This document shows positions 35,815 to 49,008 of a DNA stretch of 64,000 nt, one piece after another. The stretch spans positions 244,588-308,587 of the forward strand of contig NZ_LR027558.1 of assembly GCF_900605005.1 (NCBI RefSeq), in the 5' to 3' direction. Origin of the DNA: Acidipropionibacterium timonense. Its GTDB lineage: Bacteria; Actinomycetota; Actinomycetes; Propionibacteriales; Propionibacteriaceae. The first letter of the stretch is position 1. Each line of letters opens with the position of its first letter. Under the pieces are notes generated by a model. It was given only the letters and a program-made list of their open reading frames with translations. It was not told where the DNA came from and did no database searches. The position numbers were made by a program, and so were the translations under genes.

Positions 35815-36771
35815 TCACGCGAGTGTGAGGACTCCTGCCGCCAGCGCTTCGTCGACAACCAAGATGTCGATCGCCCCGGTGCGGAGCGCGCCAAGCGCGC
35901 CGCGGGCCTTTTCCCGCGACGAGGCGACGGCCACCGTGCAGTCGATGGCTCGTAGGTCCTCTATGGTGATGCCTATGACCCGATCAGAGGCAGGCGGCCC
36001 CAGCGGGGTGCCGTGCACGTCGAAGTAGCGTCCGAGGACGTCACCGACCGGGGAACTCGCCAACACCTGGGCCATCTCGTCGTCATTGAGTTTCATGGCA
36101 GCGAGCACTTGGCGTGAGGTGTGTACGCCGAAGGAACCGATCCCCACGAAAGCCAACTCGGACGCCTTGACGCGTGCCAGTGTCGCCTTGATGGTGGATT
36201 CTGACATCATCGCCGCGTACGTCTGGGGCGATTCGACGATTGCGGGTGCATCGAATCTTTCGGGTATCGCTTGGATCTTCTCCGCGAGCAGTTGTATGTA
36301 CGAATTGCCTTCCAGGCCGGTGTCCAAGGTCGGCATTCCACCCACCAAGGGGGTGACGCGCGTGTCAGTTCGCATGGGTTCGGTTGGTATGGCGTCGATG
36401 AGGGCTCCAATCGTCAGGCCCCAGCTGAAGCCGATCCGCGAGGCACTCGGGGCTCGGCGCATGAACACCTCGGCCGCGAGCATCGCTACTCCTCGCGAGC
36501 CCTCCGCACTGTTCGTGGCCTGAGCGACAAGGACTTCGCGGAGCCCGAATCGTCGCATCAACTCCGCCTCGATGTCCCTGTTTCGCTCCGCGTGGTCGTC
36601 CCCGACGATCCTGACTTGTACCAAGCCCTCTGCGCGCGCAGTGGCCAGCATGCGTGACACGCTGGACCGGGACACTCCAAGTCGCGTGGCCACAGCACCT
36701 TGGTCCAGCCCCTCGACGTAGTAGAGCCTGGCCGCGGCGATCAGTGTGCGTTGATCCCGTTTGGGTGGCAC
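35815..36771 (-). CDS. SorC/DeoR-type regulator, probable controller of the Gut-type operon
   Basis: This 318-aa protein has an N-terminal helix-turn-helix (GLDQGAVATRLGVSRSSVSRM) and a SorC effector domain (GFSWGLTIGALIDAI and LAFVGIGSFGVHTS). It lies downstream of and co-directional with the Gut-type PTS operon, separated by a strong terminator, so it is probably transcribed on its own. Like the operon it is visibly less GC-rich than the flanking genes. Regulation of the operon is inferred from proximity. Confidence 0.85.
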   Translation of the reverse strand: MPPKRDQRTLIAAARLYYVEGLDQGAVATRLGVSRSSVSRMLATARAEGLVQVRIVGDDHAERNRDIEAELMRRFGLREVLVAQATNSAEGSRGVAMLAAEVFMRRAPSASRIGFSWGLTIGALIDAIPTEPMRTDTRVTPLVGGMPTLDTGLEGNSYIQLLAEKIQAIPERFDAPAIVESPQTYAAMMSESTIKATLARVKASELAFVGIGSFGVHTSRQVLAAMKLNDDEMAQVLASSPVGDVLGRYFDVHGTPLGPPASDRVIGITIEDLRAIDCTVAVASSREKARGALGALRTGAIDILVVDEALAAGVLTLA

Positions 36772-36838
36772 CGTCCCCCCAGTTCTCGATCGCAGTGTTT
36801 GCCTTGGACCGTTGTACCGTGATCCACAGTCACGAACA

Positions 36839-36874
36839 AAGTCTGGGTCCGAGCCGCGGCTCGGACCCAGACTT
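36839..36874 (-). terminator. Strong hairpin terminator after the Gut-type operon
   Basis: A 36-nt perfect inverted repeat is made of two directly abutting 18-bp arms; the left arm begins AAGTCTGGGTCC and the right arm ends GGACCCAGACTT. It lies 17 bp past the oxidoreductase stop codon and upstream of the SorC gene. Confidence 0.85.
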
Positions 36875-36891
36875 GTCTCAGATACCAGCTA

Positions 36892-38199
36892 CTACTTGCC
36901 GATCACGCCAGAGGCAATGAGGGAATCCTGGAGGCGACGCATCGCGACGATCGGACGGGTCTCATCGATCTCAAGGTCGTCGTAGGTGATGATCTCGTCC
37001 TGCTTCTTGGCCGTCTTGAGCTTGCTGTGCTGCAGCAGGCCGATCGGAACTGCGCGCAGCTCTCGAGCCTTCTCGGCCGGGATCGACCACCCGTAGAAGT
37101 GATGACCGCCCATGCCCTCGAGCACGGTTTCCGGTTCAAGATCGAACTTCGCGCGCCCGACCACCTCCGTGCAGTTGTAGTGCGACTGGAAGTCAGCCTT
37201 CCGGTTGAGGACCGCCTCGCCGATCGACAGATGTGCCTCGATGGAGGCGATGTGCCACGGGCGGTAGAACAGGTAGTAAGGCCCGTGGCCCAGCTTCAGG
37301 TAGTCGAGTTCGTGCGTGATGACGTCCGATTCGGACTTCACGATGCAGAACACGCCAGGCGCGACATCTCCAGTGACGTACTCGACGACGGCACCCTTCT
37401 CCATGGAGAGGATCCCACCGTCTTCCACGGGGACAAGCTTCGTGGCGAGTTCCTTGACATTGATCTGCTGGCCATGCATGCCGTCAACCTCAACTGGAAG
37501 ATTGGTGGCATTCGAAAGGGCCGCCATCTCGAGCTGAGTCTTCGTACCATCAGTGAACTCCGTCAGCATGCGCGGGCTCATCTTCTTGCGGGCGGCTTCC
37601 GCCTCGTTGTCCTCGGGCACCGAATGGATGATGTTGACGTTGTTCTTGCCCTTGCCGGCGCAAATGACCTTGAGGCCGAGGTCCTCGGCATACTCGACCA
37701 ACTTGAGTGCCTCGACGGGCTCGTCCCCGCGGCAGACGGTGTAGACGGTGTCGCCGGCATTTGCCAAGCTGGACAGGAGCGGGCCGACGGTGATGTCCGC
37801 CTCGACCGTCATCAGCGCGACATCCTTCTGGTGGGTGATGCAGGTGTACGCAATTTGGGCAGCGATCTCAGGGACACCTGAGACCTCCACCACGATGTCG
37901 ACGGGGAGCTTGGGCATGGAGAGGCCATCGCGGATCGCCACGGCCTTCCCATCCTGCATCGACGCGATCGCAAGCTCGAGGTCGTCCCCTGCCTCGACGA
38001 CATCATCTCGGCCGGCATTCTTGAGCGCCGCAGTGGCCTTCTCGATGAAGATGTCCGCGACCGCGACGACGCTCAGACCAGGTGCCTTCTCGATGGAGGC
38101 CACGAGTCCCGAGCCCATCTGACCTGCGCCGACGACGCCGACATAGACAGGACGGCCCAACTTGGCTTGGCGCTCGAGGAGACCTTTGGTGTAACTCAT
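36892..38199 (-). CDS. COG4091-type NAD(P)-dependent oxidoreductase with SAF domain
   Basis: This 435-aa protein has an N-terminal homoserine-dehydrogenase-like Rossmann domain (VYVGVVGAGQMGSGLVASI, VEVSGVPEIAAQIAYTCI) and a C-terminal SAF domain (around LLQHSKLKTAKKQDEIITYDD). The family is usually labelled predicted homoserine dehydrogenase, but its reactions are mostly unknown. Here it is the last gene of a PTS polyol operon, so oxidation of an imported polyol phosphate, or reduction of a carbonyl intermediate, is a reasonable inference. The RBS AAAGGA precedes the start. Confidence 0.78.
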   Translation of the reverse strand: MSYTKGLLERQAKLGRPVYVGVVGAGQMGSGLVASIEKAPGLSVVAVADIFIEKATAALKNAGRDDVVEAGDDLELAIASMQDGKAVAIRDGLSMPKLPVDIVVEVSGVPEIAAQIAYTCITHQKDVALMTVEADITVGPLLSSLANAGDTVYTVCRGDEPVEALKLVEYAEDLGLKVICAGKGKNNVNIIHSVPEDNEAEAARKKMSPRMLTEFTDGTKTQLEMAALSNATNLPVEVDGMHGQQINVKELATKLVPVEDGGILSMEKGAVVEYVTGDVAPGVFCIVKSESDVITHELDYLKLGHGPYYLFYRPWHIASIEAHLSIGEAVLNRKADFQSHYNCTEVVGRAKFDLEPETVLEGMGGHHFYGWSIPAEKARELRAVPIGLLQHSKLKTAKKQDEIITYDDLEIDETRPIVAMRRLQDSLIASGVIGK

Positions 38200-38239
38200 T
38201 TCAGATTGTCCTTTCCAAATTGTGGGGAATTGAGACGCG

Positions 38240-38749
38240 CTACGGGGCTGGCCGCACGAGGTCGGCTCCGCTCACATACCTGGGGTGACGATGCACGACG
38301 CGTCGAGCACTCGAAGCTGTGATGACATTGGATGTTGATGCCATGGTCATTGACATCGCGTGGGGTAGTTCGCTTGACGGCGGCAGTTTCACCTGAGCCA
38401 GTGCCATCGAGATAGCATCCCTTAGTCGCTTGCGCTTCACACGACCTGTGGCATCGTCCATGGGCCCGACGAGTTCGGGCATGTCGTGAAAGCGGGCGAA
38501 CACAGTCAGTCCGGACATGGCAGACGCACGCACAATGCGTCCGGTGGCTACATTCACGACAAGAATGGCGATTGCGCCGCCCTTGAAGGATCGCCCACGC
38601 CCCGAGACCATCATGAGTTCGTCTCCGGCGGATGTCCTCAACACGCGATTGAGTTCCTTCTGGTAGGCGCGTTGTTGCTGGATCGTGAACCATGCGCCGA
38701 GTGACATTCCGACGAAAAGAAGCAGGGCGAAGAGCCAATCGCGTGGCAT
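38240..38749 (-). CDS. gutM: GutM-type glucitol operon activator protein
   Basis: This 169-aa protein has an N-terminal hydrophobic segment (WLFALLLFVGMSLGAWF) and a basic soluble part, matching GutM/SrlM in layout (AYQKELNRVLR and GGAIAILVVNVATGRIVRA). In E. coli GutM activates the glucitol operon. It starts 3 bp after the EIIA stop and precedes the oxidoreductase by 40 bp. Its presence confirms a Gut-family system, though not that glucitol is the substrate. Confidence 0.82.
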   Translation of the reverse strand: MPRDWLFALLLFVGMSLGAWFTIQQQRAYQKELNRVLRTSAGDELMMVSGRGRSFKGGAIAILVVNVATGRIVRASAMSGLTVFARFHDMPELVGPMDDATGRVKRKRLRDAISMALAQVKLPPSSELPHAMSMTMASTSNVITASSARRVVHRHPRYVSGADLVRPAP

Positions 38750-38752
38750 GGG

Positions 38753-39124
38753 TCAGGCTCCAGTGATAGTCACGCGGCTGCCGACCGGTGGGGCAACGGG
38801 GTGATCGCCAGTCGCTTTGACTGCGCCCGGCAACAACGGTTGATCAGGCTGATTGACGTACAGCACGAAGTGACCGAGCTCGGAAAGGTTGTCATTGGCA
38901 CGGGATCCGACTTCATCGATACGAAATGTCTGCTGTCCCAACGCGAACGTGTCGCCTTCTGCGACGTCTCGTGTGAGAGCGGTCGCACTCCTGTGGACGA
39001 TGCTGTAGTCGGCCAGTTCGCTCGGTACTGGCTCGCCGAAGAGGATGATGACGCCCCCCTCGAGCATGTCCGTCGAGTCGGCACCGATGGCAGTCACCTC
39101 GGCGCTCCATACGATGTTGGTCAC
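38753..39124 (-). CDS. srlB: PTS EIIA, glucitol/sorbitol (Gut) family
   Basis: This 123-aa cytoplasmic EIIA has LFGEPVPSELADYSIVHRS with the probable phosphohistidine, then FRIDEVGSRANDNLSELGHF, the family signature. The GTG start at 39124 follows AGGAG at 7 nt. A 133-bp gap with two stem-loops separates it from the EIIBC gene. It shares the motif pattern of the orphan EIIA at 12.2 kb. Confidence 0.88.
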   Translation of the reverse strand: MTNIVWSAEVTAIGADSTDMLEGGVIILFGEPVPSELADYSIVHRSATALTRDVAEGDTFALGQQTFRIDEVGSRANDNLSELGHFVLYVNQPDQPLLPGAVKATGDHPVAPPVGSRVTITGA

Positions 39125-39169
39125 GAGATCTCCTAAGCGTTGGGTCGTCGGGAGTGCCTTCTTCCGACG

Positions 39170-39247
39170 GGACCCCTGCCTGAAGGGGGTCCTTGAGTGG
39201 GTGTTGGGGGATGGGCGGGGGAGCCGCTGAAGCCAGAGGGCTCCCCC
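39170..39247 (-). other. Two tandem stem-loops between EIIBC and EIIA genes
   Basis: GGACCCC/GGGGTCC (39170-39192) and GGGGGAGCC/GGCTCCCCC (39217-39247) are consecutive hairpins in the only large gap of the PTS gene run. They may adjust the amount of EIIA message relative to the membrane subunits. Confidence 0.55.
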
Positions 39248-39257
39248 AGGGAGTGGG

Positions 39258-40262
39258 TCACACGAGCAGGAACGAGGCCAGGTAGGCGAGGGCAACCGCC
39301 AAGGGGGACGTGACGAGCCGGGTGAAGAGAACCGCTGACACGCCGACGGACACCGTCTCTGGCTTTGCCTCGCCGAGCGAGAGCCCCACCGGGACGAAGT
39401 CACATCCGACCTGGCCATCGATGGCGAAGAGGGTGGGAAGGGCGTACTGCACGGGCAATGCGCCCTGACCGATCTGGGTACCCATGAGGACCCCGATCAC
39501 CTGAGCGATCGCAGCACCCGGACCAAGAATTGGCGACAATAGCGGGATCGCGACGATGAAGCCCAGAAGAAGGAGGCCCAACGGGTTGCTCGCCAGCGGT
39601 GTCACGGTCTTCGCCAGCCACTTCGAGATGCCCGTGTAGTTGACGATGCCAATCAACAGGGCAACGTACGCCATGAATGGAATCACCGTCTGGAGGATGA
39701 TTTCCAATGCCTGACGGCCAGATGACAGCAGCGAGTTGATGAAGTAGCCGATGCCGTTACCAAACTTGACGACGAACCCCATGAAGCCGCCCTTTTCGGC
39801 CTGCTGCTGGCTCACGGTCTTCGGCGTGGGTGGAGTTTCGGTGGGCATGGTCGTCGAGGTATCGCTCGCCGCTTGGGCTCCAGCTGCCGCTGGGTCGGCG
39901 ATGGTGATCCGTTCGGGGCTGACATCCGACACGAAGATGTCCGGCTTGATGTATTTCGCGAGTGGACCTGTTGGACCGCCTGGAAAGATGTCGACGGTTG
40001 GCAGTCCCTTCTTTGGATAGATGCCGACCCGAGCGGTCCCACCGCAGTTGATGACGACGGCCATGACCTGCTCGTCCGGGATGGTGTTGCTGAATCCATC
40101 CACCGCTTCGGCGCCGCTGAGTTCGGCCATCTTCGCGGCAACTGGATGAATCCCACCTCCTGTGACGGACAGCACGATGTGGCGATCTTCGGTCGGTGTC
40201 AGGACGAGTCCATTTCCCCAGCCGCTCGATCCCTTGGAAACCTTGATGGACGTGTAGCTCAT
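39258..40262 (-). CDS. srlE: PTS EIIBC component, glucitol/sorbitol (Gut) family
   Basis: This 334-aa protein has an N-terminal EIIB domain with the phosphocysteine C73 in VVINCGGTARVGIYPKKG. A Thr/Pro-rich linker (TPPTPKTVSQQQ) follows, then a membrane domain (IILQTVIPFMAYVALLIGIV, LLLLGFIVAIPLLSPIL). The C-terminus carries the conserved GQVGCDFVPVGLSLGEA motif. It works with the SrlA-type EIIC, whose stop overlaps its start by 4 bases (ATGA). Confidence 0.92.
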   Translation of the reverse strand: MSYTSIKVSKGSSGWGNGLVLTPTEDRHIVLSVTGGGIHPVAAKMAELSGAEAVDGFSNTIPDEQVMAVVINCGGTARVGIYPKKGLPTVDIFPGGPTGPLAKYIKPDIFVSDVSPERITIADPAAAGAQAASDTSTTMPTETPPTPKTVSQQQAEKGGFMGFVVKFGNGIGYFINSLLSSGRQALEIILQTVIPFMAYVALLIGIVNYTGISKWLAKTVTPLASNPLGLLLLGFIVAIPLLSPILGPGAAIAQVIGVLMGTQIGQGALPVQYALPTLFAIDGQVGCDFVPVGLSLGEAKPETVSVGVSAVLFTRLVTSPLAVALAYLASFLLV

Positions 40263-40864
40263 TCTGCCACCCCCTGGAGGTTACCGGCCTGGTAGGCAGC
40301 GTCATAACGAGCGAACGTCTCGACGTGCCCGCCTCGCTTGATGAGGATGTTCGTCATCCATTGAGTCGCGAGTCCACGGAAGAAGATGACGACCAGTCCG
40401 ACGAGGAAATATAGGATTGCAAGCGTGGCATATTTGTCCGGAGCGATCTTCTGGACGCCTGCCGCTACCCCCATCCATACGAATATCTCGCCGGCGTTGG
40501 CATGCGGGAACAGTGCCGTGATCGGATGACACATCGAAACGGCCGAGTCATAGAACGCCGGCTTGTAGCGCTCTGGCAGGAATCGTCCGAAGGTGTATGC
40601 CATGGGGTTGGTCAGCAGTAGCATCGCCAAGAAAGGCATGATAGTGTACCGAGTGACCGTGTACCGGCCAGCGCGTTGGATGGCTCGGGTCACGCGCTCC
40701 TCGCCAATCCATGTAGTGATTGCGTACATGGCTGTCAACATGACCATGAGCAGCGGGAGGATTCCCGTGACCAAGCTCGTGAATGACTTGGCGGATTCAT
40801 TGAAGAGGCCAATGAAGTGTTGAGCGAACCAGGTGATGCCATGCATCAGTGGGTTGTTGCCCAT
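40259..40864 (-). CDS. srlA: PTS EIIC component, glucitol/sorbitol (Gut) family
   Basis: This 201-aa membrane protein has about five hydrophobic segments. LVTGILPLLMVMLTAMYAI, TIMPFLAMLLLTNPMAYTFG and SMCHPITALFPHANAGEIFVW are Gut-EIIC signatures. It carries part of the polyol channel with SrlE. A gap of about 170 bp (40865-41032) separates it from yjbQ upstream; that gap shows no gene and may hold a second promoter. Confidence 0.92.
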   Translation of the reverse strand: MGNNPLMHGITWFAQHFIGLFNESAKSFTSLVTGILPLLMVMLTAMYAITTWIGEERVTRAIQRAGRYTVTRYTIMPFLAMLLLTNPMAYTFGRFLPERYKPAFYDSAVSMCHPITALFPHANAGEIFVWMGVAAGVQKIAPDKYATLAILYFLVGLVVIFFRGLATQWMTNILIKRGGHVETFARYDAAYQAGNLQGVAE

Positions 40865-41032
40865 GTGAACTCCTCTGTTCGTTGGGGTTTGCGTCTGGGT
40901 TCCCTAAGTGCCGGGTGTGGGTGATCGTGGGAACCAAGCGGCTGGCGGTGGGTCATCCTTTCTGACTTGTGCGGGAGTCGCTTCGGCTGACTTGAGTGAC
41001 GTTTTCCAGTTCTTATCGTGTGGCGACTTCGG

Positions 41033-41563
41033 TCAATCTCCGATGATCGTGACTCGACACGTTCTCTTGCGTGCACGAGATCGGTCCCAATCGGTGAAGA
41101 AAATGTATCCAGTTACACCGAATCCCAGCTCTCCATCGATGAGAGGGAAGACTTGACTTGAACCGACGACACTTGCTTTCAGGTGTGCGTCGGCATTGAG
41201 GAGCTGCGTGCGATCTCCATCAGGAAGGTACACGGCGGCATCGGGCCATGTCTCGACCTCTTGGAAATGCTTCTCTCCCGGATACCGATAAGCGCCGGCA
41301 GGGGGAAGCTCAGTCTGGTCTGGGGCAATCCTGGCCAACGTGTCATTGAGATCGGCCTGAAGAAAGTCCGTTCCGTCGGGCAGCTCGTCGTGGGCGTATT
41401 CGTCATAGTAGATTGAACACGTCGTGTGAGGTGACATCACGGCCACGATGCCATTCGTAATGTGCGATCGTGCGATGGCCTCACGCACCTGCGACGTCAC
41501 GTTGATGAAGCTCGGGGTTCCACCGTGGGACTCGAGTTCGATGGTGTGGTGGAAGACAGTCAT
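41033..41563 (-). CDS. yjbQ: YjbQ/UPF0047 family protein
   Basis: This 176-aa protein of the UPF0047 fold has the conserved NGIVAVMSPHTTCSIYYDEYA with the family histidine, then LNDTLARIAP, LKASVVGSSQVFPLIDGELG and IFFTDWDRSR. Family members can show weak thiamine-phosphate synthase activity, but their real function is unknown. Here the gene lies between the aldolase (13 bp away) and the PTS genes, so a role in the same sugar pathway is suggested. The start at 41563 follows AAGGA. Confidence 0.85.
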   Translation of the reverse strand: MTVFHHTIELESHGGTPSFINVTSQVREAIARSHITNGIVAVMSPHTTCSIYYDEYAHDELPDGTDFLQADLNDTLARIAPDQTELPPAGAYRYPGEKHFQEVETWPDAAVYLPDGDRTQLLNADAHLKASVVGSSQVFPLIDGELGFGVTGYIFFTDWDRSRARKRTCRVTIIGD

Positions 41564-41576
41564 GATCAATCCTTGA

Positions 41577-42428
41577 TCAGATAGTGGGTGTGGCGAGGAC
41601 ACTCACAAAGTGGGAAACATCCGCTTCGACGCCCCGTTGAGCTGCCACGGCCAAGTTGGAGAAGAGGATGGAGCTCTCGTCGTCGATGAGTGGAGCAGCG
41701 GCATCATATGCCGCCTTCGCGGCGTACGTGTAGTAGTTGATCTTCCGCACTCCATGCCGGATGCATTCCTTGTACTCATCGTCACTGAGACCGGAGCCCC
41801 CATGCATGACGATGGGAACTCCAGTTTGCTCACGGAGTTGGCTGATGAGCTCATAGTTGAGATGGGGCTTCCGGCGGTAGACGCCGTGCACGGTTCCGAA
41901 CGAGGCTGCGAGGCAGTCGACTCCGGTGGCCTCGACGAAGGTCGTTGCCATTGCGGCGTCAGTGTAAAGGGTTTCGTCTGCGATGCCTTGGGAGGGGTCC
42001 CCGTTCTCGTTCCCGGTCATGACCCCGATTTCACCTTCGACTGCGATGTCGCGGGCATGGGCCATCTCGACGACCTCGCGCGTGATCTTGACGTTCTCGT
42101 CGTATGGACGACGTGAGGCGTCAATCATGCACGAATTGAAGCCGATGTCCAGTCCTCGGCGGATATAGTCGATGTCATCCCCGTGGTCGATGTGGAGGAC
42201 GAACTTGCCCTCAGAGCGTGTCGCGAGTGCGACCATGGCAGGTCCGATCTCGTCCAGCGGAGTGATGTTCTCGTGGACCTGGGCGCACTGGAGAATGATG
42301 GGAAGCCCCGTCCGCTCGCCTACGCGAATTGTCGCGGTAAGAGCTTCGAAGAACGGTGTGTTGACGGCAGCGATGGCCGAGTTGTGCTGGTCGGCATAGG
42401 ACAGTGCTTCGCGCAGTCCGATGAGCAT
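41577..42428 (-). CDS. Class II fructose-bisphosphate aldolase family protein
   Basis: This 283-aa zinc aldolase is of FbaA/GatY/KbaY type. Zinc ligands and active-site motifs are FVLHIDHGDD, AVEGEIGVMTGNE, LAASFGTVHGVY and IVMHGGSGLSDDE. Members split fructose- or tagatose-1,6-bisphosphate, or shorter ketose phosphates, to dihydroxyacetone phosphate. No sugar-phosphate kinase is encoded in the operon, so a monophosphate substrate from the PTS would have to be accepted or phosphorylated by a kinase from elsewhere. The TIM-like gene is 16 bp upstream. Confidence 0.88.
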   Translation of the reverse strand: MLIGLREALSYADQHNSAIAAVNTPFFEALTATIRVGERTGLPIILQCAQVHENITPLDEIGPAMVALATRSEGKFVLHIDHGDDIDYIRRGLDIGFNSCMIDASRRPYDENVKITREVVEMAHARDIAVEGEIGVMTGNENGDPSQGIADETLYTDAAMATTFVEATGVDCLAASFGTVHGVYRRKPHLNYELISQLREQTGVPIVMHGGSGLSDDEYKECIRHGVRKINYYTYAAKAAYDAAAPLIDDESSILFSNLAVAAQRGVEADVSHFVSVLATPTI

Positions 42429-42444
42429 CGTGGAGTCCTTTCGG

Positions 42445-43158
42445 TCAGGGGCGGGGGGTGGAGTGGGACGCCCTATGGTTGGCGATTGCCGTGAACATGT
42501 CGGTGAGGATGTGTCGCCAATCCGGGTGGTTGACAATGCCGCTGGTGCCGCCTGAGCCATCGGCGCCTTGGCCGAGGACGCGCGTGATGTCTGCGCCGGT
42601 CGTGACACCAGCGCCCTGGATGACCATGATGTGCGGGTCGACGTCCTTGACGATCCGCGTCGTCCTACCGATGTAGTCGCCCGCATCCATGGTTCCTGTT
42701 CCGATGAGCGCTGTGGGCTCGCAAATCATGATGTCGGGTCCCATCGTCGCGATGGCGCGGCACTGGGCGTCTGTGTCAGCGCAGACGATGGTGGCGAGGC
42801 CCACCTCCCTGGCGCGACGGATGTTCGCGTCCAGCTCCGCGATGGTCAGCGGATGCTCTGCATGGTTGAGGACCACGCCTCTCGCTCCAGCTTCGACGAG
42901 GGAGTCGGGAAGGATGTGACCCATTCCGCGACCCTTGACGATCGGGTCCATGTGCTGTGCCGTCACGGCCAGATGCCTGGTGGTCTCGGCAATGAGGCGG
43001 AGGTCGACATGTTGCGCCGTGAAGACCACGTCCACGTCGAACTCAGGAGCGAGTTCGTCGGCGAGACGAGCGAGCCGCAAGGTGTCGGCCGAGCCCAGGT
43101 ACGCCTTCGGGTTGATGATCAGGAAAGGCGAGCGGACGAAGGGCTGATGCTGCGCCAT
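42445..43158 (-). CDS. Triose-phosphate isomerase-like protein, archaeal-type
   Basis: This 237-aa TIM barrel is shorter than bacterial TpiA and resembles archaeal TIM: FTAQHVDLRL, GRGMGHILPDSLVEAGARGV, LNHAEHPLTIAELDA. Active-site residues are present: K18 in INPKAYLG, His in LNHAEHP (usual GHSER) and Glu in ICEPTALIGTG. The altered His loop hints at a substrate other than glyceraldehyde 3-phosphate, for example a tetrulose phosphate as for EryH; this is inference. It is the first gene of the operon. ATG 43158 follows GGAGAGG; ATG 43167 is possible. Confidence 0.85.
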   Translation of the reverse strand: MAQHQPFVRSPFLIINPKAYLGSADTLRLARLADELAPEFDVDVVFTAQHVDLRLIAETTRHLAVTAQHMDPIVKGRGMGHILPDSLVEAGARGVVLNHAEHPLTIAELDANIRRAREVGLATIVCADTDAQCRAIATMGPDIMICEPTALIGTGTMDAGDYIGRTTRIVKDVDPHIMVIQGAGVTTGADITRVLGQGADGSGGTSGIVNHPDWRHILTDMFTAIANHRASHSTPRP

Positions 43159-43538
43159 GGTTGACATCCTCTCCGGTGAGTCTGCACAAAATTGCATATG
43201 ATTCGGGAATAAGTGCGAATGGCTTCATGATGGCACGCCGGCTGTCGGTGCGCAAGGGTTCGGCGCGAATCTGACCGGTTCGGCCGTCCGCGCGCTTCGC
43301 ATCCTGGACGGGAGGGATGGGAGGGTCCTGTCTCGGCGGCTTGTGGGCTGACCTACTTGTGGGCTGTCGTCAAGGTGTGTCCAGTGGTGAGTGTCCGTCC
43401 CGTCCATGGACTGGGCGTATCGACCGAAGGTCTTGACATCCTGCCCATCGCGGGCCGAAAGTGTTCCTGTTCATGTGAAGACCCCTTTCGAAAAGGGTCT
43501 TTGTAACCACTGTGTTACCGCGATGACAGGAGCAGGCG
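43159..43538. promoter_or_regulatory. Divergent regulatory region between the Gut-type operon and the ROK fusion gene
   Basis: No gene is seen in these 380 bp. Near the minus-strand operon lies TGCA-caaaat-TGCA (43183-43196) in an AT-rich patch. Near the plus-strand gene lies a TTGACA -35-like box (43433-43438). A 24-nt near-perfect palindrome AAGACCCC..GGGTCTT (43478-43501, one mismatched pair) and GTAAC-cactgt-GTTAC (43503-43518) follow. The last two sit 20-60 bp before the ROK start and are probable operators. Confidence 0.5.
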
Positions 43539-45860
43539 ATGACGCCGGACGACCACGACGCCAGGAGGGCCAGGGCGGATGCAGTTCTTGCTGCCATCCG
43601 TGCCGCGGCACCAGAGCCCCGGACCGCCCGTGATCTTGTCGCGGCCACCGGCCTGTCCCGACCGACGGTCATGTCGTTGCTCGGGGATCTCGAGAGGCGC
43701 GGGCTCGTTCGACGCTCGGAATCGCTTCCCGAGTCCGGGGTGGGGCGTCCGGCGGCGTGCTGGCTGCCTGCTCGCCAGTCCGGCATCGTCGTCGCAGCGG
43801 ACGTGCTCGTGTCGACGATGCTCGTCACCGTGGCCACCGTCCACGGTGAGGTGCTGCAGGCGCAGGCTCACCCGGTGCGCCACGAGCGGCGAACGGAACG
43901 GCTCGACGAGGTCGTCTCCGTCATCGAGGATCTCGTGGCTCGGTGGGCTCCCAGTCGTGGACCCCTCATCCAGATCGGCGTCTCGACAACGGGTGTCGTC
44001 GACGGCGATGGCCTCATCCAGCGCTGTGATCTCGTCCCGCAGTGGGTGGGCCTGGCTCTGGCGGAGGACCTGTCCGCGCGGCTCGGTGCCCCTGTGCTCG
44101 TCGACAACGACATCAACATGGCCGCCTACGGCGAGTTCGCGACCCGACGCCAGGATCGATCCCTGCGCCCTGACAGCGACCTCCTGCTGGTGCAGATGAC
44201 GCGCGGTTTCAACACGGGTCTGGTGCTCGGGGGCGCCGTGCACCACGGTCGGCAGTGGAATGCCGGCGAGCTCAGCGACGTCCTGGGTCGTCCACTCGAC
44301 CGGATGGACGCGCCGACGCAGGAGTGGGTGGAGCAGGCGGCGGTGGCGATCGGGACCGCCGCTGCCGTCATCGATCCCGAACTCATCGTCATCACCGGCC
44401 CGACGCCGCGTTCGCGTGCCGCCATTCGCCAGGTCATCGCCCGACTGGTCAACGGACGCCCCGACGGCGCGCCGGCGCTACCCACCGACATCTCGACCCT
44501 CGGCTGGTCGGCCTCGGTCACCGGCGCCCTGGCGATGGCGCTCCATGCCGCCGTCGGGCGCCTGCTCGAGGTACCCGATCCCACTGCCGTGGACATCACT
44601 CACACCGACCTCATCGCTGCAGAACTCGAGAAAGGACCTCACTCCACCATGACGACGACCACCACCCCCGCCCCGCGCAGCGACACCCTCCGGGTGGGCG
44701 TCGTCGGGGTCGGAGCCCGGTCCCGCCTCGCGCTCAATGCCGAGCTCGAGGAGAACAACGGACGCATCACCGCCGTGGCCGAGCCCCATCACCTGGTCCG
44801 CAAGCGGGTGGCGGACCGACTCCACAAGGACCCCGACACCCTGACCATCGTCCCGGACGTCCAGGGGCTCATCGACGCCGGCGTCGACGTCGCCTTCGTC
44901 ACCTCGCCCGATGACACGCACGCCGACGTCACCTGCGCGCTCCTGGAGGCCGGCGTGCCGGTCTACCTCGAGAAGCCCTTGGCGATCACCCTCGAGTCCG
45001 CGACCCGAGTGCTGACCACGGCCTTCCAGACCGGGACGCGACTCTACGTCGGACACAACATGCGGCACATGAACGTCGTGCGCTCCATGCGCGACCTCAT
45101 CCGAACCGGACGGATCGGCGAGGTCAAGGCGATCTGGTGCCGACACTTCGTCGGCAACGGCGGCGACTTCTACTTCAAGGACTGGCACGCCACCCGCGAG
45201 CACGGCACCGGCCTGCTGCTGCAGAAGGCGGCCCACGACATCGACGTCATGCACTGGCTCGCCGACTCCCACGCCACCGATGTCGTGGCGATGGGGGAGC
45301 TCACCCTGTACGACCAGGTGACCGACCGTCGTTCCCACGCCGACGAGCTCATGGGTGACTGGTTCTCGCACGACAACTGGCCGCCGCTGGCCCAGAAGGG
45401 GCTCAATCCGGTCATCGACGTCGAGGATCTCTCGATGGTGCTCATGCGCATGGAGTCCGGCGTGTACGCCTCCTATGAGCAGTGCCATTACACGCCCGAC
45501 TACTGGCGCAACTACACGGTCATCGGCACCGAGGGACGCATCGAGAACTTCGGCGACGGCGAGGGTGGCGTCATCCGGTTGTGGAACCGGCGCACCGAGT
45601 ACAACCCGGGCGGCGACGAGCAGTTCCCCATCATCGGTGATGCCAATGGCCATGGTGACGCCGACGTCCTCACCGTCGGTGAGTTCATGCGTTTCGTGCG
45701 GACCGGTGCCCCGACCGACACCTCTCCGCTGGGGGCGTGGTACGCCGTCGCCGCCGGCATCCAGGCCACCGAGTCGCTGCGCGACGGCTCGACGCCCCGT
45801 GAGGTCCCGGTGTTGCCGTCCGAGATCGTCGACTACTTCCGGAACAACCAGGTCAAGTGA
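43539..45860 (+). CDS. In-frame fusion: ROK-family regulator + Gfo/Idh/MocA oxidoreductase
   Basis: One uninterrupted 773-codon reading frame holds two complete proteins. Residues 1-350 are a ROK repressor: helix-turn-helix (RDLVAATGLSRPTVMSLLGD), a ROK domain with VLVDNDINMAAYGE, and no CxCG zinc motif. Residues 371-773 are an NAD(P) oxidoreductase (LRVGVVGVGARSRLALNAEL, VYLEKPLAITLES, GTGLLLQKAAHDIDVMHWLA). An ATG at 44649 with GAGAAAGGA (44628-44636) upstream marks where the second gene would normally begin, but no stop codon separates them. Either a stop was lost or the fusion is real; internal initiation could also give a separate 403-aa enzyme. The start codon follows AGGAG. A sugar importer operon follows 25 bp later. 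Confidence 0.82.
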   Translation: MTPDDHDARRARADAVLAAIRAAAPEPRTARDLVAATGLSRPTVMSLLGDLERRGLVRRSESLPESGVGRPAACWLPARQSGIVVAADVLVSTMLVTVATVHGEVLQAQAHPVRHERRTERLDEVVSVIEDLVARWAPSRGPLIQIGVSTTGVVDGDGLIQRCDLVPQWVGLALAEDLSARLGAPVLVDNDINMAAYGEFATRRQDRSLRPDSDLLLVQMTRGFNTGLVLGGAVHHGRQWNAGELSDVLGRPLDRMDAPTQEWVEQAAVAIGTAAAVIDPELIVITGPTPRSRAAIRQVIARLVNGRPDGAPALPTDISTLGWSASVTGALAMALHAAVGRLLEVPDPTAVDITHTDLIAAELEKGPHSTMTTTTTPAPRSDTLRVGVVGVGARSRLALNAELEENNGRITAVAEPHHLVRKRVADRLHKDPDTLTIVPDVQGLIDAGVDVAFVTSPDDTHADVTCALLEAGVPVYLEKPLAITLESATRVLTTAFQTGTRLYVGHNMRHMNVVRSMRDLIRTGRIGEVKAIWCRHFVGNGGDFYFKDWHATREHGTGLLLQKAAHDIDVMHWLADSHATDVVAMGELTLYDQVTDRRSHADELMGDWFSHDNWPPLAQKGLNPVIDVEDLSMVLMRMESGVYASYEQCHYTPDYWRNYTVIGTEGRIENFGDGEGGVIRLWNRRTEYNPGGDEQFPIIGDANGHGDADVLTVGEFMRFVRTGAPTDTSPLGAWYAVAAGIQATESLRDGSTPREVPVLPSEIVDYFRNNQVK

Positions 45861-45885: not shown

Positions 45886-47178
45886 ATGAAGAGGCGCAGT
45901 TTCCTGGCCGGTGCAGCAACGCTCGCCGCCATGGCTGTCACCGGGTGCGGATCGAAGTCGGGTGGATCGTCGTCGACGTCGTCGACCATCGACGCCGGCA
46001 CCACCGCTGAACTCACGCTGGCGTACTGGGACAAGAACCAGACCCCGACGATCCAGGAGAACATCAAGAGTTTCAAGGCGAAGTATCCGAAGATCACCAT
46101 CAAGACGAACCTCACGGCCTACGCCAACTACTGGACGAAGCTCAAGACCCAGGCTCAGGGCGGGGACCTGCCTGACGTCCTGTGGATGAACGGACCGAAC
46201 ATCCAGCTGTACTCGTCCAACGACATGCTCGAGCCCCTGGACTCGGTGACCTCACAGGGGGTCTCGTGGGACAACTACCCCAAGGCACTCGTCAACCTCT
46301 ACACGTACGACGGCAAGCACTACGGCATCCCCAAGGACTACGACACCATCGGCGTGTTCTACAACAAGGCGATCTTCAAGCAGGCAGGAGTGGAGGAGCC
46401 CAAGGCCGGTTGGACCTGGGATGACTTCCACACCAAGGCAAAGAAGATTTCGGACTGGGGCAGGTCGAAGGGCATCTACGGCTGTGCCACCACCATCAAC
46501 GGTGACGGCCAGGGCACCTACTACAACACGATCCTCCAGGCGGGTGGGTTCATCATCAAGGACGGCAAGTCCGGATACGACGATCCCAAGTCGATCGAGG
46601 GGCTTCAGTGCTGGGCCGACTGGATCAAGGACGGTTCGGTCGCCTCGGCGAAGATCGTCACCGACACCAAGCCCGACGTCATGTTCGAGAACGGGAAGTC
46701 GGCCATGTTCTGGGCCGGCGACTGGACGGCGTCCGAGCTGGCCAACGATCTCAAGGGCAAGGAGGACCAGTTCGGCGTCGTCGAGCTGCCGCGCAAGGAC
46801 AAGCAGGCCACGGTCATCCATGGCCTGGCCTGGGCCGTGTCGAAGAAGTCGGCGAACAAGGCCGCGGCCATCGCCCTGGCGGCACACATGAGCTCGAAGG
46901 CCGCCCATGAGGTCGAGGCGAGGAATGGCACCGCGATCCCGGCGTTCAACGGCACCCAGGACGCGTGGGTGAAGTCGTACCCGAAGTGGGACGTCAAGCT
47001 CTTCATCGACGCCGCGACGAGTTACGCCCAGCCGTATCCGGTGAGCAAGAACACCGATGTGTGGGCCAACAAGGAGGCCGAGATCCTCGTCCCGGCCTTC
47101 GATGGGCAGACCACCATCGCCGCCGCGGCCAAGCAGATGGCCGACTTCATGAATGCGGCCCTGGCCAAGGAGAAGTGA
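45886..47178 (+). CDS. Sugar ABC transporter substrate-binding lipoprotein
   Basis: This 430-aa family-1 solute-binding protein has a twin-arginine-like basic start (MKRRSFLAGAATLAAMAVTG) and the lipobox VTGC. The Ser-rich linker and the DVLWMNGPNIQLYSSNDML and YGIPKDYDTIGVFYNKAIFK motifs fit CUT1 receptors. AAGGAGAG precedes ATG 45886. It is 25 bp after the ROK-oxidoreductase gene, which suggests that the oxidoreductase acts on the imported sugar and that the ROK part controls the operon. Confidence 0.9.
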   Translation: MKRRSFLAGAATLAAMAVTGCGSKSGGSSSTSSTIDAGTTAELTLAYWDKNQTPTIQENIKSFKAKYPKITIKTNLTAYANYWTKLKTQAQGGDLPDVLWMNGPNIQLYSSNDMLEPLDSVTSQGVSWDNYPKALVNLYTYDGKHYGIPKDYDTIGVFYNKAIFKQAGVEEPKAGWTWDDFHTKAKKISDWGRSKGIYGCATTINGDGQGTYYNTILQAGGFIIKDGKSGYDDPKSIEGLQCWADWIKDGSVASAKIVTDTKPDVMFENGKSAMFWAGDWTASELANDLKGKEDQFGVVELPRKDKQATVIHGLAWAVSKKSANKAAAIALAAHMSSKAAHEVEARNGTAIPAFNGTQDAWVKSYPKWDVKLFIDAATSYAQPYPVSKNTDVWANKEAEILVPAFDGQTTIAAAAKQMADFMNAALAKEK

Positions 47179-48140
47179 TGTCGACAGCTGGCGCTCGGGG
47201 CGTCACTGGCGCCCCGAGCCCCGGCTCGGCTCGGCCGAGGGGTCGACGTCGCCGGGGCTCTCCCACCTCCGTCGGTGCCTGGCCGGTCCTCTTCATCGGC
47301 CTGCTCATGCTCGGTGTGGCCGTGTTCTACTACTGGCCGATCGTCAAGAACATCATCACCTCGCTGCAGCAGACCAATGCCTTCGGCGGTGATCCCGAGT
47401 TCGTCGGGCTGGCCAACTACCGGGATCTGTTCACCGATCCCGGGCTGGGGTCCGCGATCGGCAACACGCTGCTGTACACGATCGTGGTCCTTCTGGGGGT
47501 GCCCCTGTCGGTGGCCATCGCCTCGATGATCGAATTGCCCGGGCTGCGCGGGAAGAGCGTCTACCGGATGGTGTATTTCCTGCCCTATCTGGCGATGCCG
47601 ATGGCCGTCGCCCAGGTGTGGAAGATCATCTTCAACGGGAACTTCGGTCTGCTCAACCAATTCCTTCGAGCCATCGGGGTGAGCAACCCTCCGTACTGGA
47701 TCGTCACCTCAGGATGGGCCATCGTCGCGGTGTCCGTGTTCGGCCTGTGGTGCTCGATCGGGTTCAACGTCATCATCCTCTCGAGTGGGCTCAAGGCCAT
47801 TCCGAGGGAACTGTACGAGGCGGCGTCCATCGACGGCGCCACCGGGCTCAAGCAGTTCCGGTGGGTCACCGTGCCTCTGCTCACGCCGTCGATCTTCTTC
47901 CTCACGATCATGACGACGATCGGTGGGTTCCAGTTGTTCGACGCCCTCTACGCCATGATGGGCGCCCTCAATCCAGCTGAGCCGAGCACGCGGTCGCTCG
48001 TGTCACTGTTCTATCGACAGGCCTTCGTCGACAGCAACCAAGGAGCAGGAGCCGCCATCGCGGTCGTTATCCTCGTCTTCGTCGCGATCGTCACGCTCGT
48101 CCAGTTCATCGGGCAGCGGAGGTGGGTGAACTATGTCTGA
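47178..48140 (+). CDS. Sugar ABC transporter permease (MalF type)
   Basis: This 320-aa membrane permease has a Pro/Arg/Gly-rich cytoplasmic N-terminus (about 35 residues) and then six hydrophobic segments. The EAA loop is ELYEAASIDGATGLKQFRWV. The start overlaps the receptor stop by one base (TGATG). It pairs with the next permease. Confidence 0.92.
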   Translation: MSTAGARGVTGAPSPGSARPRGRRRRGSPTSVGAWPVLFIGLLMLGVAVFYYWPIVKNIITSLQQTNAFGGDPEFVGLANYRDLFTDPGLGSAIGNTLLYTIVVLLGVPLSVAIASMIELPGLRGKSVYRMVYFLPYLAMPMAVAQVWKIIFNGNFGLLNQFLRAIGVSNPPYWIVTSGWAIVAVSVFGLWCSIGFNVIILSSGLKAIPRELYEAASIDGATGLKQFRWVTVPLLTPSIFFLTIMTTIGGFQLFDALYAMMGALNPAEPSTRSLVSLFYRQAFVDSNQGAGAAIAVVILVFVAIVTLVQFIGQRRWVNYV

Positions 48141-49008
48141 GGTCGAGACCGCCGAGGCGGTGGCGCGCATGTCGGCGCGCAGGTCGCACGTCTCCCAGCG
48201 ACGGTACCTGGGCGTCCACATCCTGCTCGTTCTCGGCGGACTGTGCATGGTGTTCCCCTTCGTCTACCAGATCCTCATGTCGTTGTCGACGAATCTGGAG
48301 ATCCAGTCGGTGCCGCCCACCTTCATCCCGTCGAGCCTGCACTGGAGCAACTACTCGGACGTTCTCACCAAGCTCCCGTTCCTCCACCAGTTCTGGGTGT
48401 CGGTCGAGATCACCGTGCTGCGCACGGTCGTCCAGCTCGTCCTGTGCTCGATGGCTGGCTACGCGTTCGCGCGCATGCAGTTCCGGGGAAGGACGGTCCT
48501 CTTCGGTTTGCTCCTGGCGATTCTCATGGTCCCCGGACAGTCGTACCTCATCGGTCAGTACAAGGTCATCCAGGGCCTGGGACTCCTGGAGACACCGTGG
48601 GGGATCGTCCTGCCGGGATTCTTCTCCGCCTTCGGCGCCTTCCTCATGAGACAGGCCTTCATGAGCCTGCCGGTCGAGCTCGAGGAGGCGGCGCGCCTCG
48701 ACGGGTGCAATCCCTGGCAGACCTTCTGGCGGGTCATGTTCCCGTTGGTCAATCCGAGCCTCTTCGCGGTGATGATCACGACGGTGCTGTGGTCGTGGAA
48801 CGACCTCCTGTGGCCGCTCATCGTCACCACCCGCGAGGAGTCGATGCCGCTGAGCGTCGGAATCGCCACCCTGGCCGGGCAGCACGCCAGCGACTACGCC
48901 CTCATGATGGCGGCGTCGACGATGGCCATGGCCCCGATCTTCATCCTCTTCTTCACGATGCAGAAGCGGGTCATCGAGGGGCTGGCGACCTCGGGTCTCA
49001 AGGGCTGA
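48133..49008 (+). CDS. Sugar ABC transporter permease (MalG type)
   Basis: This 291-aa permease has LGVHILLVLGGLCMVFPFVY as its first segment and the EAA loop ELEEAARLDGCNPWQTFWRV. It overlaps the preceding permease by 8 bases. No ATPase gene follows. Its TGA stop directly abuts the stop of the convergent osmoprotectant receptor gene, with no base between. Confidence 0.92.
   Translation: MSEVETAEAVARMSARRSHVSQRRYLGVHILLVLGGLCMVFPFVYQILMSLSTNLEIQSVPPTFIPSSLHWSNYSDVLTKLPFLHQFWVSVEITVLRTVVQLVLCSMAGYAFARMQFRGRTVLFGLLLAILMVPGQSYLIGQYKVIQGLGLLETPWGIVLPGFFSAFGAFLMRQAFMSLPVELEEAARLDGCNPWQTFWRVMFPLVNPSLFAVMITTVLWSWNDLLWPLIVTTREESMPLSVGIATLAGQHASDYALMMAASTMAMAPIFILFFTMQKRVIEGLATSGLKG

Follow-up and report, generated by a model that had tools for sequence, protein, structure and literature searches.

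The window analysed here is a stretch of 64,000 nucleotides of contig NZ_LR027558.1, and its forward strand carries, at positions 43539-45860 (+), a single gene in which a regulator of the ROK family is fused to a dehydrogenase of the Gfo/Idh/MocA family. The frame begins with an ATG, continues for 773 codons without interruption and ends with a TGA. The encoded protein of 773 aa is composed of a helix-turn-helix (HTH) domain, a ROK domain, a linker and the dehydrogenase, as supported by the open frame, by Pfam and by a full-length counterpart in relatives. The original prediction, made from the letters of the window alone, had placed a ROK regulator in frame with such a dehydrogenase, and both the arrangement and its coordinates proved exact. 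A conserved start codon inside the frame makes it probable that the same gene also specifies the dehydrogenase by itself. Genomes and loci of relatives are referred to by our own handles (G and L numbers).

Domains of the fused protein

The winged HTH occupies the N-terminal residues 12-62 (43572..43724, +), is matched by the Pfam families MarR_2 and HTH_IclR and contains an SRPT motif; the extended motif SRPTV did not vary in any of the 11 fused proteins aligned. The ROK domain follows at about residues 80-345 (43776..44573, +), and its membership in the family is given by a PF00480 match at residues 96-245 (68.4 bits, cut-off 22.9). An AlphaFold2 model built from 11 sequences (mean predicted local distance difference test score 75.7, predicted template modelling score 0.52, weak within parts of 537-632) served for the fold alone, and not for placing the two halves relative to each other. 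With VIA-align, the ROK half of this model was superposed on 4ija, a structure of the ROK fold (Z 29.7 over residues 11-356), and on 5f7q, a ROK repressor in complex with its operator (Z 28.5 over residues 1-347), which identifies it as a ROK fold with an N-terminal HTH. This half had been described as full-length. The description is generous, as the best Pfam stretch is limited to profile positions 13-155 of 294 and, past the GExxD motif, the domain is shortened by 29 alignment columns that are present in the fused ROK of Isoptericola. The pair Asn190-Asp191 was retained in all of the 37 fused genes compared (distinct genes of the first of the three fused groups described below, after removal of five duplicates; one further gene of G897, its second copy, and the two copies in G949 lie outside this set).

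Neither the zinc motif CxCGxxGC nor GExGH, which we take to be sugar-site motifs of the Mlc/NagC/XylR type, was present in the 17 rows of the fused group or in the 28 unfused ROK rows, one row of each set being incomplete. Judged by these motifs, the ROK domain of the window is not placed in the zinc-type, sugar-binding subset (Mlc/NagC/XylR). Loss of the motifs as a consequence of the fusion was considered and rejected, since all of the 28 unfused rows likewise lack them; these rows were mostly selected by two peptide patterns and are not representative of the entire ROK family.

The linker, residues 346-370 (44574..44648, +), is protein-coding, as indicated by the ratio of nonsynonymous to synonymous substitution rates (dN/dS) in six pairs of genes, and it overlaps the internal ribosome-binding site. 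Behind it, the dehydrogenase domain extends over residues 384-773 (44688..45857, +), as delimited by Pfam, by a phmmer alignment to 2glx and by a residue table (n=37). Its Rossmann part (PF01408, GFO_IDH_MocA, residues 384-506) scored 63.1 bits (cut-off 24), and the C-terminal domains PF02894 and PF22725 (residues 514-669 and 518-749) scored 60.4 bits (cut-off 22.9) and 75.7 bits (cut-off 27), so that both parts exceed the Pfam cut-offs and assign the protein to the Gfo/Idh/MocA family. In the model, this half matched the folds of 2glx (Z 30.1), the sulfoquinovosidase 8qc3 (Z 29.9) and the levoglucosan dehydrogenase 6a3g (Z 28.9). Lys479 of the EKP motif is present in all 37 fused genes and His566 in 35 of them, and the window protein has both; we presume that these are the EKP lysine and the active-site histidine with the roles that they have in the family. 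The position of the inositol-dehydrogenase Asp corresponds to Gln562 here (Gln in 36/37 fused genes), and in the phmmer alignment to 2glx the active-site His is retained and the preceding Asp substituted. None of the curated NCBIfam scores, including that of Inositol 2-dehydrogenase (IolG), was reached, the best being 87.6 against 450, 74.8 against 355 and 64.6 against 540.

Distribution and age of the fusion

Within the genus, the entire frame was found in seven of the nine genomes, that is, in the window and in six others at 65-68% identity; C. modestum (G007) has a split gene and G002 has no close match. A second genus contained an entire fused frame at 74% identity. The scan with the ROK part gave 37 loci, 10 of them fused, from Acidipropionibacterium (3 loci), Cutibacterium, a Propionibacteriaceae metagenome-assembled genome, Actinomyces urogenitalis and Isoptericola cucumis. 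The remainder consisted of the split gene of C. modestum, a gene of Isoptericola QY 916 that ends at the contig edge, and Cryobacterium together with 24 other loci, where no dehydrogenase match was found near the ROK gene.

Of 394 genomes sampled from the class, 33 contained a close dehydrogenase, and G156 and G202 were additional fusions among the loci examined. In the own family of the window, a match at E <= 1e-150 was obtained in 29 of the 197 genomes sampled, and 24 of these had the fused frame, several in two copies; 23 span from residue 27 or earlier to residue 771 or later without a stop, and G947 is in frame from residue 178. The other five matches were broken (G007 and G876) or comprised the dehydrogenase only (G956, G941 and G957). 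Of the 213 genomes of family f51, to which A. urogenitalis belongs (L054, duplicated by L171), 57 matched at E <= 1e-120 and nine had the fused frame. In the order of G156, 396 genomes were sampled and 91 matched, with no fusion among the 27 new loci examined. A separate ROK gene lies directly upstream of the dehydrogenase at L124 (G761), and adjacent unfused pairs were also detected at L180 and L182 (G1031 and G1034). The long frames at L086, L099, L134, L139 and L144 were rejected as fusions for want of an upstream ROK match, and those of G361 (813 residues), G571:C26, G485, G519, G572, G493, G558 and G693:C10 were left out of the fusion check. In a tree of the fused proteins, the window gene clustered with Acidipropionibacterium, apart from other Cutibacterium; horizontal transfer or a deep branch of its genome is possible.

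Purifying selection acts on the ROK part, the linker and the enzyme. In all of the six pairs, linker residues 350-371 showed a dN of 0.06-0.23, below a dS of 0.32-0.68 (dN/dS about 0.10-0.34). For ROK residues 80-335 the dN was 0.07-0.27 against a dS of 0.41-1.15 (dN/dS about 0.09-0.32), and for the dehydrogenase dN/dS was about 0.03-0.17, the ROK dN being 2.0-4.4 times that of the enzyme. The 12 residues following Met371 were less constrained, with a dN of 0.42-0.45 in three of the six pairs.

Because the frame is intact in 33 genomes of two families and the linker is constrained, the fusion is, on these comparisons, judged to be old and maintained by selection; an error of sequencing or a stop codon lost recently does not account for it. 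The original prediction was of two genes joined by loss of a stop codon, with the stop region of related genomes as the place to check. Across relatives the joined frame was intact, and splits were found in some (C. modestum, G876 and G956). Such a joining of neighbouring genes is a credible but ancient origin, since ROK and dehydrogenase genes stand side by side without being joined in G761, G1031 and G1034. These pairs could also be read in favour of a recent join; with the intact frame recurring across the genus and two families and the linker under constraint, a recent event, like an artefact of sequencing or assembly, is refuted and its probability is negligible.

In a dehydrogenase tree of 62 rows (without duplicates and L034) the fusion state changed twice. 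With 88 rows (without L034, L104, L149 and duplicates) three fused groups were obtained, Propionibacteriaceae-Actinomyces, Isoptericola with G202, and G156, with three changes that were forced by the starred branches of this quick tree. The ROK tree, in which the contig-cut Isoptericola QY 916 was coded as unfused and the split C. modestum as fused, required four changes, two of them forced. The linkers of the three groups are unlike in length and composition, and the fused ROK domains fall within one 21-row clade (support 94/90), which also holds ROK genes adjoining the same transporter (Cryobacterium) or dehydrogenase (G761). On these trees, more than one fusion probably arose from an old neighbourhood of ROK, dehydrogenase and transporter genes, and the lineages of Isoptericola with G202 and of G156 may be separate fusions. 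Long branches limit inference on the number of origins, and one origin with losses and several joinings both remain.

A start codon within the frame

A Shine-Dalgarno sequence, GAGAAAGGA, is located inside the linker at 44628..44636 (+), 12 nt upstream of the ATG at 44649 that encodes Met371, as the original prediction had stated. It is distinguished by duplex energy, codon bias and conservation, and initiation at this ATG would produce a free dehydrogenase of 403 aa (44649..45860, +). The duplex energy was calculated by pairing the 16 nt upstream of a start with the 16S ribosomal RNA tail, for which we assumed the sequence familiar to us. The value for the window gene, -9.7, was below those of all the 245 other internal ATGs compared. 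In the first set, 13 of 13 genes gave -7.8 to -9.8 and 10 of these were below all 245, a background that is not independent, as it stems from genes related to one another. Among the comparison starts at the locus, those of the ROK gene, the solute-binding protein (SBP) gene and permG gave -8.2 to -9.0, and the presumed TIM start gave -0.3. Codon choice was also biased under the pairing region. Gly366 is encoded by GGA in 12 of the 13 genes (GGA overall, 144/936 Gly codons), and no other of the 41 invariant Gly columns has more than seven GGA; at position 365, AAA encodes seven of the ten Lys (25/174 overall) and AGA both of the two Arg (18/762 Arg codons overall).

Across the 37 distinct fused genes, codon 371 is ATG in 27, TTG in three and GTG in one, which makes 31 start codons, with duplex energies of -6.2 to -11.3 kcal/mol. 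The remaining six genes have GCA, GAG, CAA, CTC, GAG and CAA, with energies of +0.1 to -6.4, and a start codon is present in each of the 30 fused genes whose duplex is at least as strong as -7. Since TTG accounts for only 180 of the 2686 Leu codons in these genes, its use for three of the four Leu at this position is unlikely by chance. On the tree of the 37 proteins (a quick tree, with the linker columns left in), loss of the start in six genes needs three changes, in at least three lineages. From these codon-by-codon tests, and not from a window scan, we conclude that the internal start is conserved at the nucleotide level, as a start. The second product by internal initiation that had been proposed is probable, given a start codon and Shine-Dalgarno sequence in 31 of the 37 genes.

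The site was also found where the two halves are separate. In C. modestum, the ROK part runs into a TAG after a net one-base frameshift, and the site of the enzyme is retained (-9.7); against two relatives, dN/dS was 0.09-0.15 for ROK and 0.03-0.06 for the enzyme. In G956, a ROK match was not found, a NUDIX gene lies upstream of the enzyme, and the enzyme (dN 0.087 and dS 0.72 against L196) starts at a Shine-Dalgarno sequence and ATG equivalent to the internal site of the fused genes. Therefore, this site can act as a gene start. Additionally, L186 (G876) has an in-frame TGA within the ROK part of an otherwise whole fused gene, with the enzyme and the internal start intact.

An SBP gene lies downstream in 28 of the 31 genes with the internal start (the exceptions being C. 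porci, G005 and L174) and in one of the six without it, a count for which mostly about 1.5 kb of flank was available. L193 (G910) and L198 (G838) are start-less fused paralogues in which the active-site His566 is replaced by Asp; the start-less L191, L195, L194 and L185 retain the His. By its residues, the enzyme domain of L193 and L198 is probably non-catalytic and kept inside the regulator. The loss of the His, in one small clade, fits an enzyme domain freed from catalysis, and loss of start and His together could mark a natural route by which an enzyme becomes a regulator.

Operon, candidate mechanism and known systems

Upstream of the gene, a -35-like TTGACA at 43433..43438 (+), a likely promoter by its spacing to the palindrome core, precedes the putative operator GACCCCTTTCGAAAAGGGTC at 43480..43499 (+), a near-perfect palindrome 40-59 nt before the gene. 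The core TTTYGAAA was present in 11 of the 12 upstream regions of Cutibacterium and Acidipropionibacterium, TTGAC stands 53-55 nt before it in nine of the ten regions having both, and 43480-43499 is the sole match in its own genome at up to three mismatches. The putative operator would be placed shortly after the transcription start, which would suit a roadblock repressor. Behind the fusion, in a conserved gene order, follow an ATP-binding cassette (ABC) transporter SBP (SBP_bac_1, 45886..47178, +; PF01547, 123.8 bits) and two ABC permeases of the BPD_transp_1 family (PF00528) at 47178..48140 (+) and 48133..49008 (+), a conserved operon whose cargo is presumably a sugar.

A related ROK gene of Cryobacterium (L055, 3511-6965) directly precedes the same SBP and permease genes, with no dehydrogenase between them. 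At L054, L057, L110, L125 and L126, one or two additional, distant Gfo/Idh/MocA dehydrogenases (~25-33% identity) lie downstream of the operon or of the first dehydrogenase, and the frames downstream of the fusion in G005 (L040) resemble, by reading and without a profile scan, a threonine dehydrogenase and an aminotransferase-type ligase. Elsewhere in the window, 35815-43197 (-) carries a regulator with a sugar-binding domain, a sorbitol phosphotransferase system enzyme II, a class II aldolase and a triosephosphate isomerase (Pfam), a cluster to which none of the genus's other 19-kb neighbourhoods gave a match, and the protein encoded at 53476-55932 (818 aa) combines an N,N-dimethylformamidase beta-like domain with a weak FG-GAP repeat.

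The account that we consider likely is that of a dual-initiation gene, which heads a sugar-ABC operon and specifies both an autoregulator joined to a pathway enzyme and the free enzyme. The start at 43539 would give the 773-residue autoregulator, an HTH-ROK repressor covalently linked to a Gfo/Idh/MocA sugar dehydrogenase, and the internal Shine-Dalgarno sequence and the ATG at 44649 would give the dehydrogenase by itself. The ROK part would most likely repress its own operon (the fusion, the SBP gene and the two permease genes) at the palindrome 43480-43499 and release it when the transported sugar or its product is present, upon which free enzyme would be produced along with the transporter. 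Gfo/Idh/MocA enzymes are oligomers, and so free subunits could assemble onto fused ones. We infer from the sequence that both products are made, that the regulator binds DNA and represses itself, that its ligand is a sugar and that mixed oligomers form. As to the original prediction of a regulator tethered to the enzyme of the pathway it controls, the covalent join at the head of an operon is correct, and control of the pathway is plausible in view of the ABC genes and the palindrome.

Several observations weigh against this account. The start is lacking in six of the 37 fused genes and in the fusions of Isoptericola, G202 and G156, whose linkers hold no comparable start (the best is a TTG 61 codons ahead of the enzyme, at -6.6), and it is therefore not required for fusion as such. 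The peptide G-x-H itself is kept in 31 of the 37 genes, including L185 and L194 without a start, so that the conservation is partly at the peptide level. The pairing of the start-less L193 (-6.4) is no weaker than that of L173 (-6.2), which has the weakest value among start-bearing genes, and the Shine-Dalgarno sequence is not specially unpaired (0.23-0.72). Synonymous conservation near 364-368 is moderate in the window scan, and a strong window-wide constraint at the internal start was dropped as a candidate, since its z of 2.1 was not that of the top window (others reached 3.1). In the upstream regions of S5R, Actinomyces, Isoptericola and G202, the palindrome core was not detected. Moreover, C. 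porci (L038) and G005 (L040), where a close copy of the SBP was not found genome-wide, have an intact and constrained fusion without the transporter, and control of the transporter is therefore not its sole use. The absence of the ROK sugar-site motifs makes the inducer not predictable, and the same holds for the substrate in view of Gln562. Finally, the separation of the halves in C. modestum and G956 may be of recent date, and the pairwise constraint may largely predate it.

The retention of the peptide, two start-less genes included, the fused lineages without an internal start and the only moderately raised scan would suit a fusion that is the sole product, with GAGAAAGGA and the ATG as a relic of an old intergenic region or as the codons of a KGxH peptide motif. 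However, the rare AAA, AGA and GGA are retained where the anti-Shine-Dalgarno sequence pairs, no replacement of Met other than TTG-Leu or GTG-Val occurs in the 30 genes of strong pairing, L173 and L174 lose G-x-H yet retain the start, start and Shine-Dalgarno sequence disappear together in three lineages, and the site is the gene start in G956, all of which makes a sole product improbable. Even less credible is a vestigial ROK half, a translated leader without regulation whose enzyme alone matters. The faster change of ROK than of the enzyme in the six pairs, its shortened C-terminal half and missing motifs, and its loss or breakage in G956, G876 and perhaps G947 are in keeping with it, but the ROK dN remains below dS, SRPTV is unchanged in the 11 aligned proteins, the palindrome and the -35-like box keep a near-constant spacing, and the ROK half of C. 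modestum is constrained although split. A refinement compatible with the dual-initiation explanation takes the dehydrogenase domain as the sensor, in the manner of a trigger enzyme: its cofactor or substrate state would set DNA binding, and the internal start would add catalytic capacity. The missing sugar-site motifs agree with such a sensor, as do L193 and L198, which lost His566 and kept the remainder of the domain; yet the motifs are equally missing in the 28 unfused rows and thus not linked to the fusion. In sequence, both domains of the window protein are intact. We regard this refinement as possible, though doubtful.

Regulators are thought to arise from DNA-binding parts joined to enzymes, and intermediates are scarce. 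Possible intermediates coexist here, as separate genes, a fusion with the start, a fusion without it and a fusion with a damaged active site. A tentative natural series from enzyme to regulator would lead from adjacent genes to a fusion with an internal start, in which mixed oligomers read the catalytic state, then to a gene with the fused product only and to the His-less sensor of G910 and G838; the internal start could have let the fusion be tolerated. For annotation, one frame would here stand for two products, and automatic gene calling would usually report a single one of them.

No paper on a ROK-dehydrogenase fusion was found in the literature searched, which leaves out most subscription journals. 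The gene combines two known kinds, the trigger-type fusion of regulator and enzyme and internal initiation. It resembles the ROK repressors (Lmo0178, TM1224, Mlc; PF00480) in the HTH and ROK fold, the Asn-Asp pair, the adjoining ABC genes and the upstream palindrome, and differs from them in the complete dehydrogenase attached, the lack of the zinc motif and of GExGH, and the shortened C-terminal half. With the Gfo/Idh/MocA oxidoreductases (1,5-anhydrofructose reductase 2glx, 8qc3 and 6a3g) it shares the fold (Z about 29-30), the EKP lysine and the active-site histidine; unlike them, it is fused to a regulator, and the inositol-dehydrogenase Asp is a Gln. In the MocR/PdxR regulators, a GntR HTH and an aminotransferase-like domain likewise make a regulator of an HTH fused to an enzyme fold, although the folds are other ones, and we know of no internal start in them. 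Trigger enzymes were reportedly treated by Commichau and Stulke in 2008.

In-frame internal starts give rise to two isoforms in clpB, cheA and infB. In mycobacteria, western blots confirmed two isoform open reading frames (PMC9094748), which offer a precedent for the mode of translation. As in these genes, one frame would give two products with a common C-terminus, but here the shorter product would be the enzyme in its entirety and the longer one the regulator fused to it. BzdR consists of an XRE-type HTH and a shikimate-kinase-like domain that has no kinase activity and binds the effector (PMC3602430). Like BzdR and the trigger enzymes, the protein of the window has a DNA-binding part joined to a metabolic enzyme; it differs in that its enzyme looks intact in most members, its regulatory part comprises an entire ROK protein, and free enzyme would come from a second start. 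BzdR offers a precedent for the evolution of a regulator from an enzyme.

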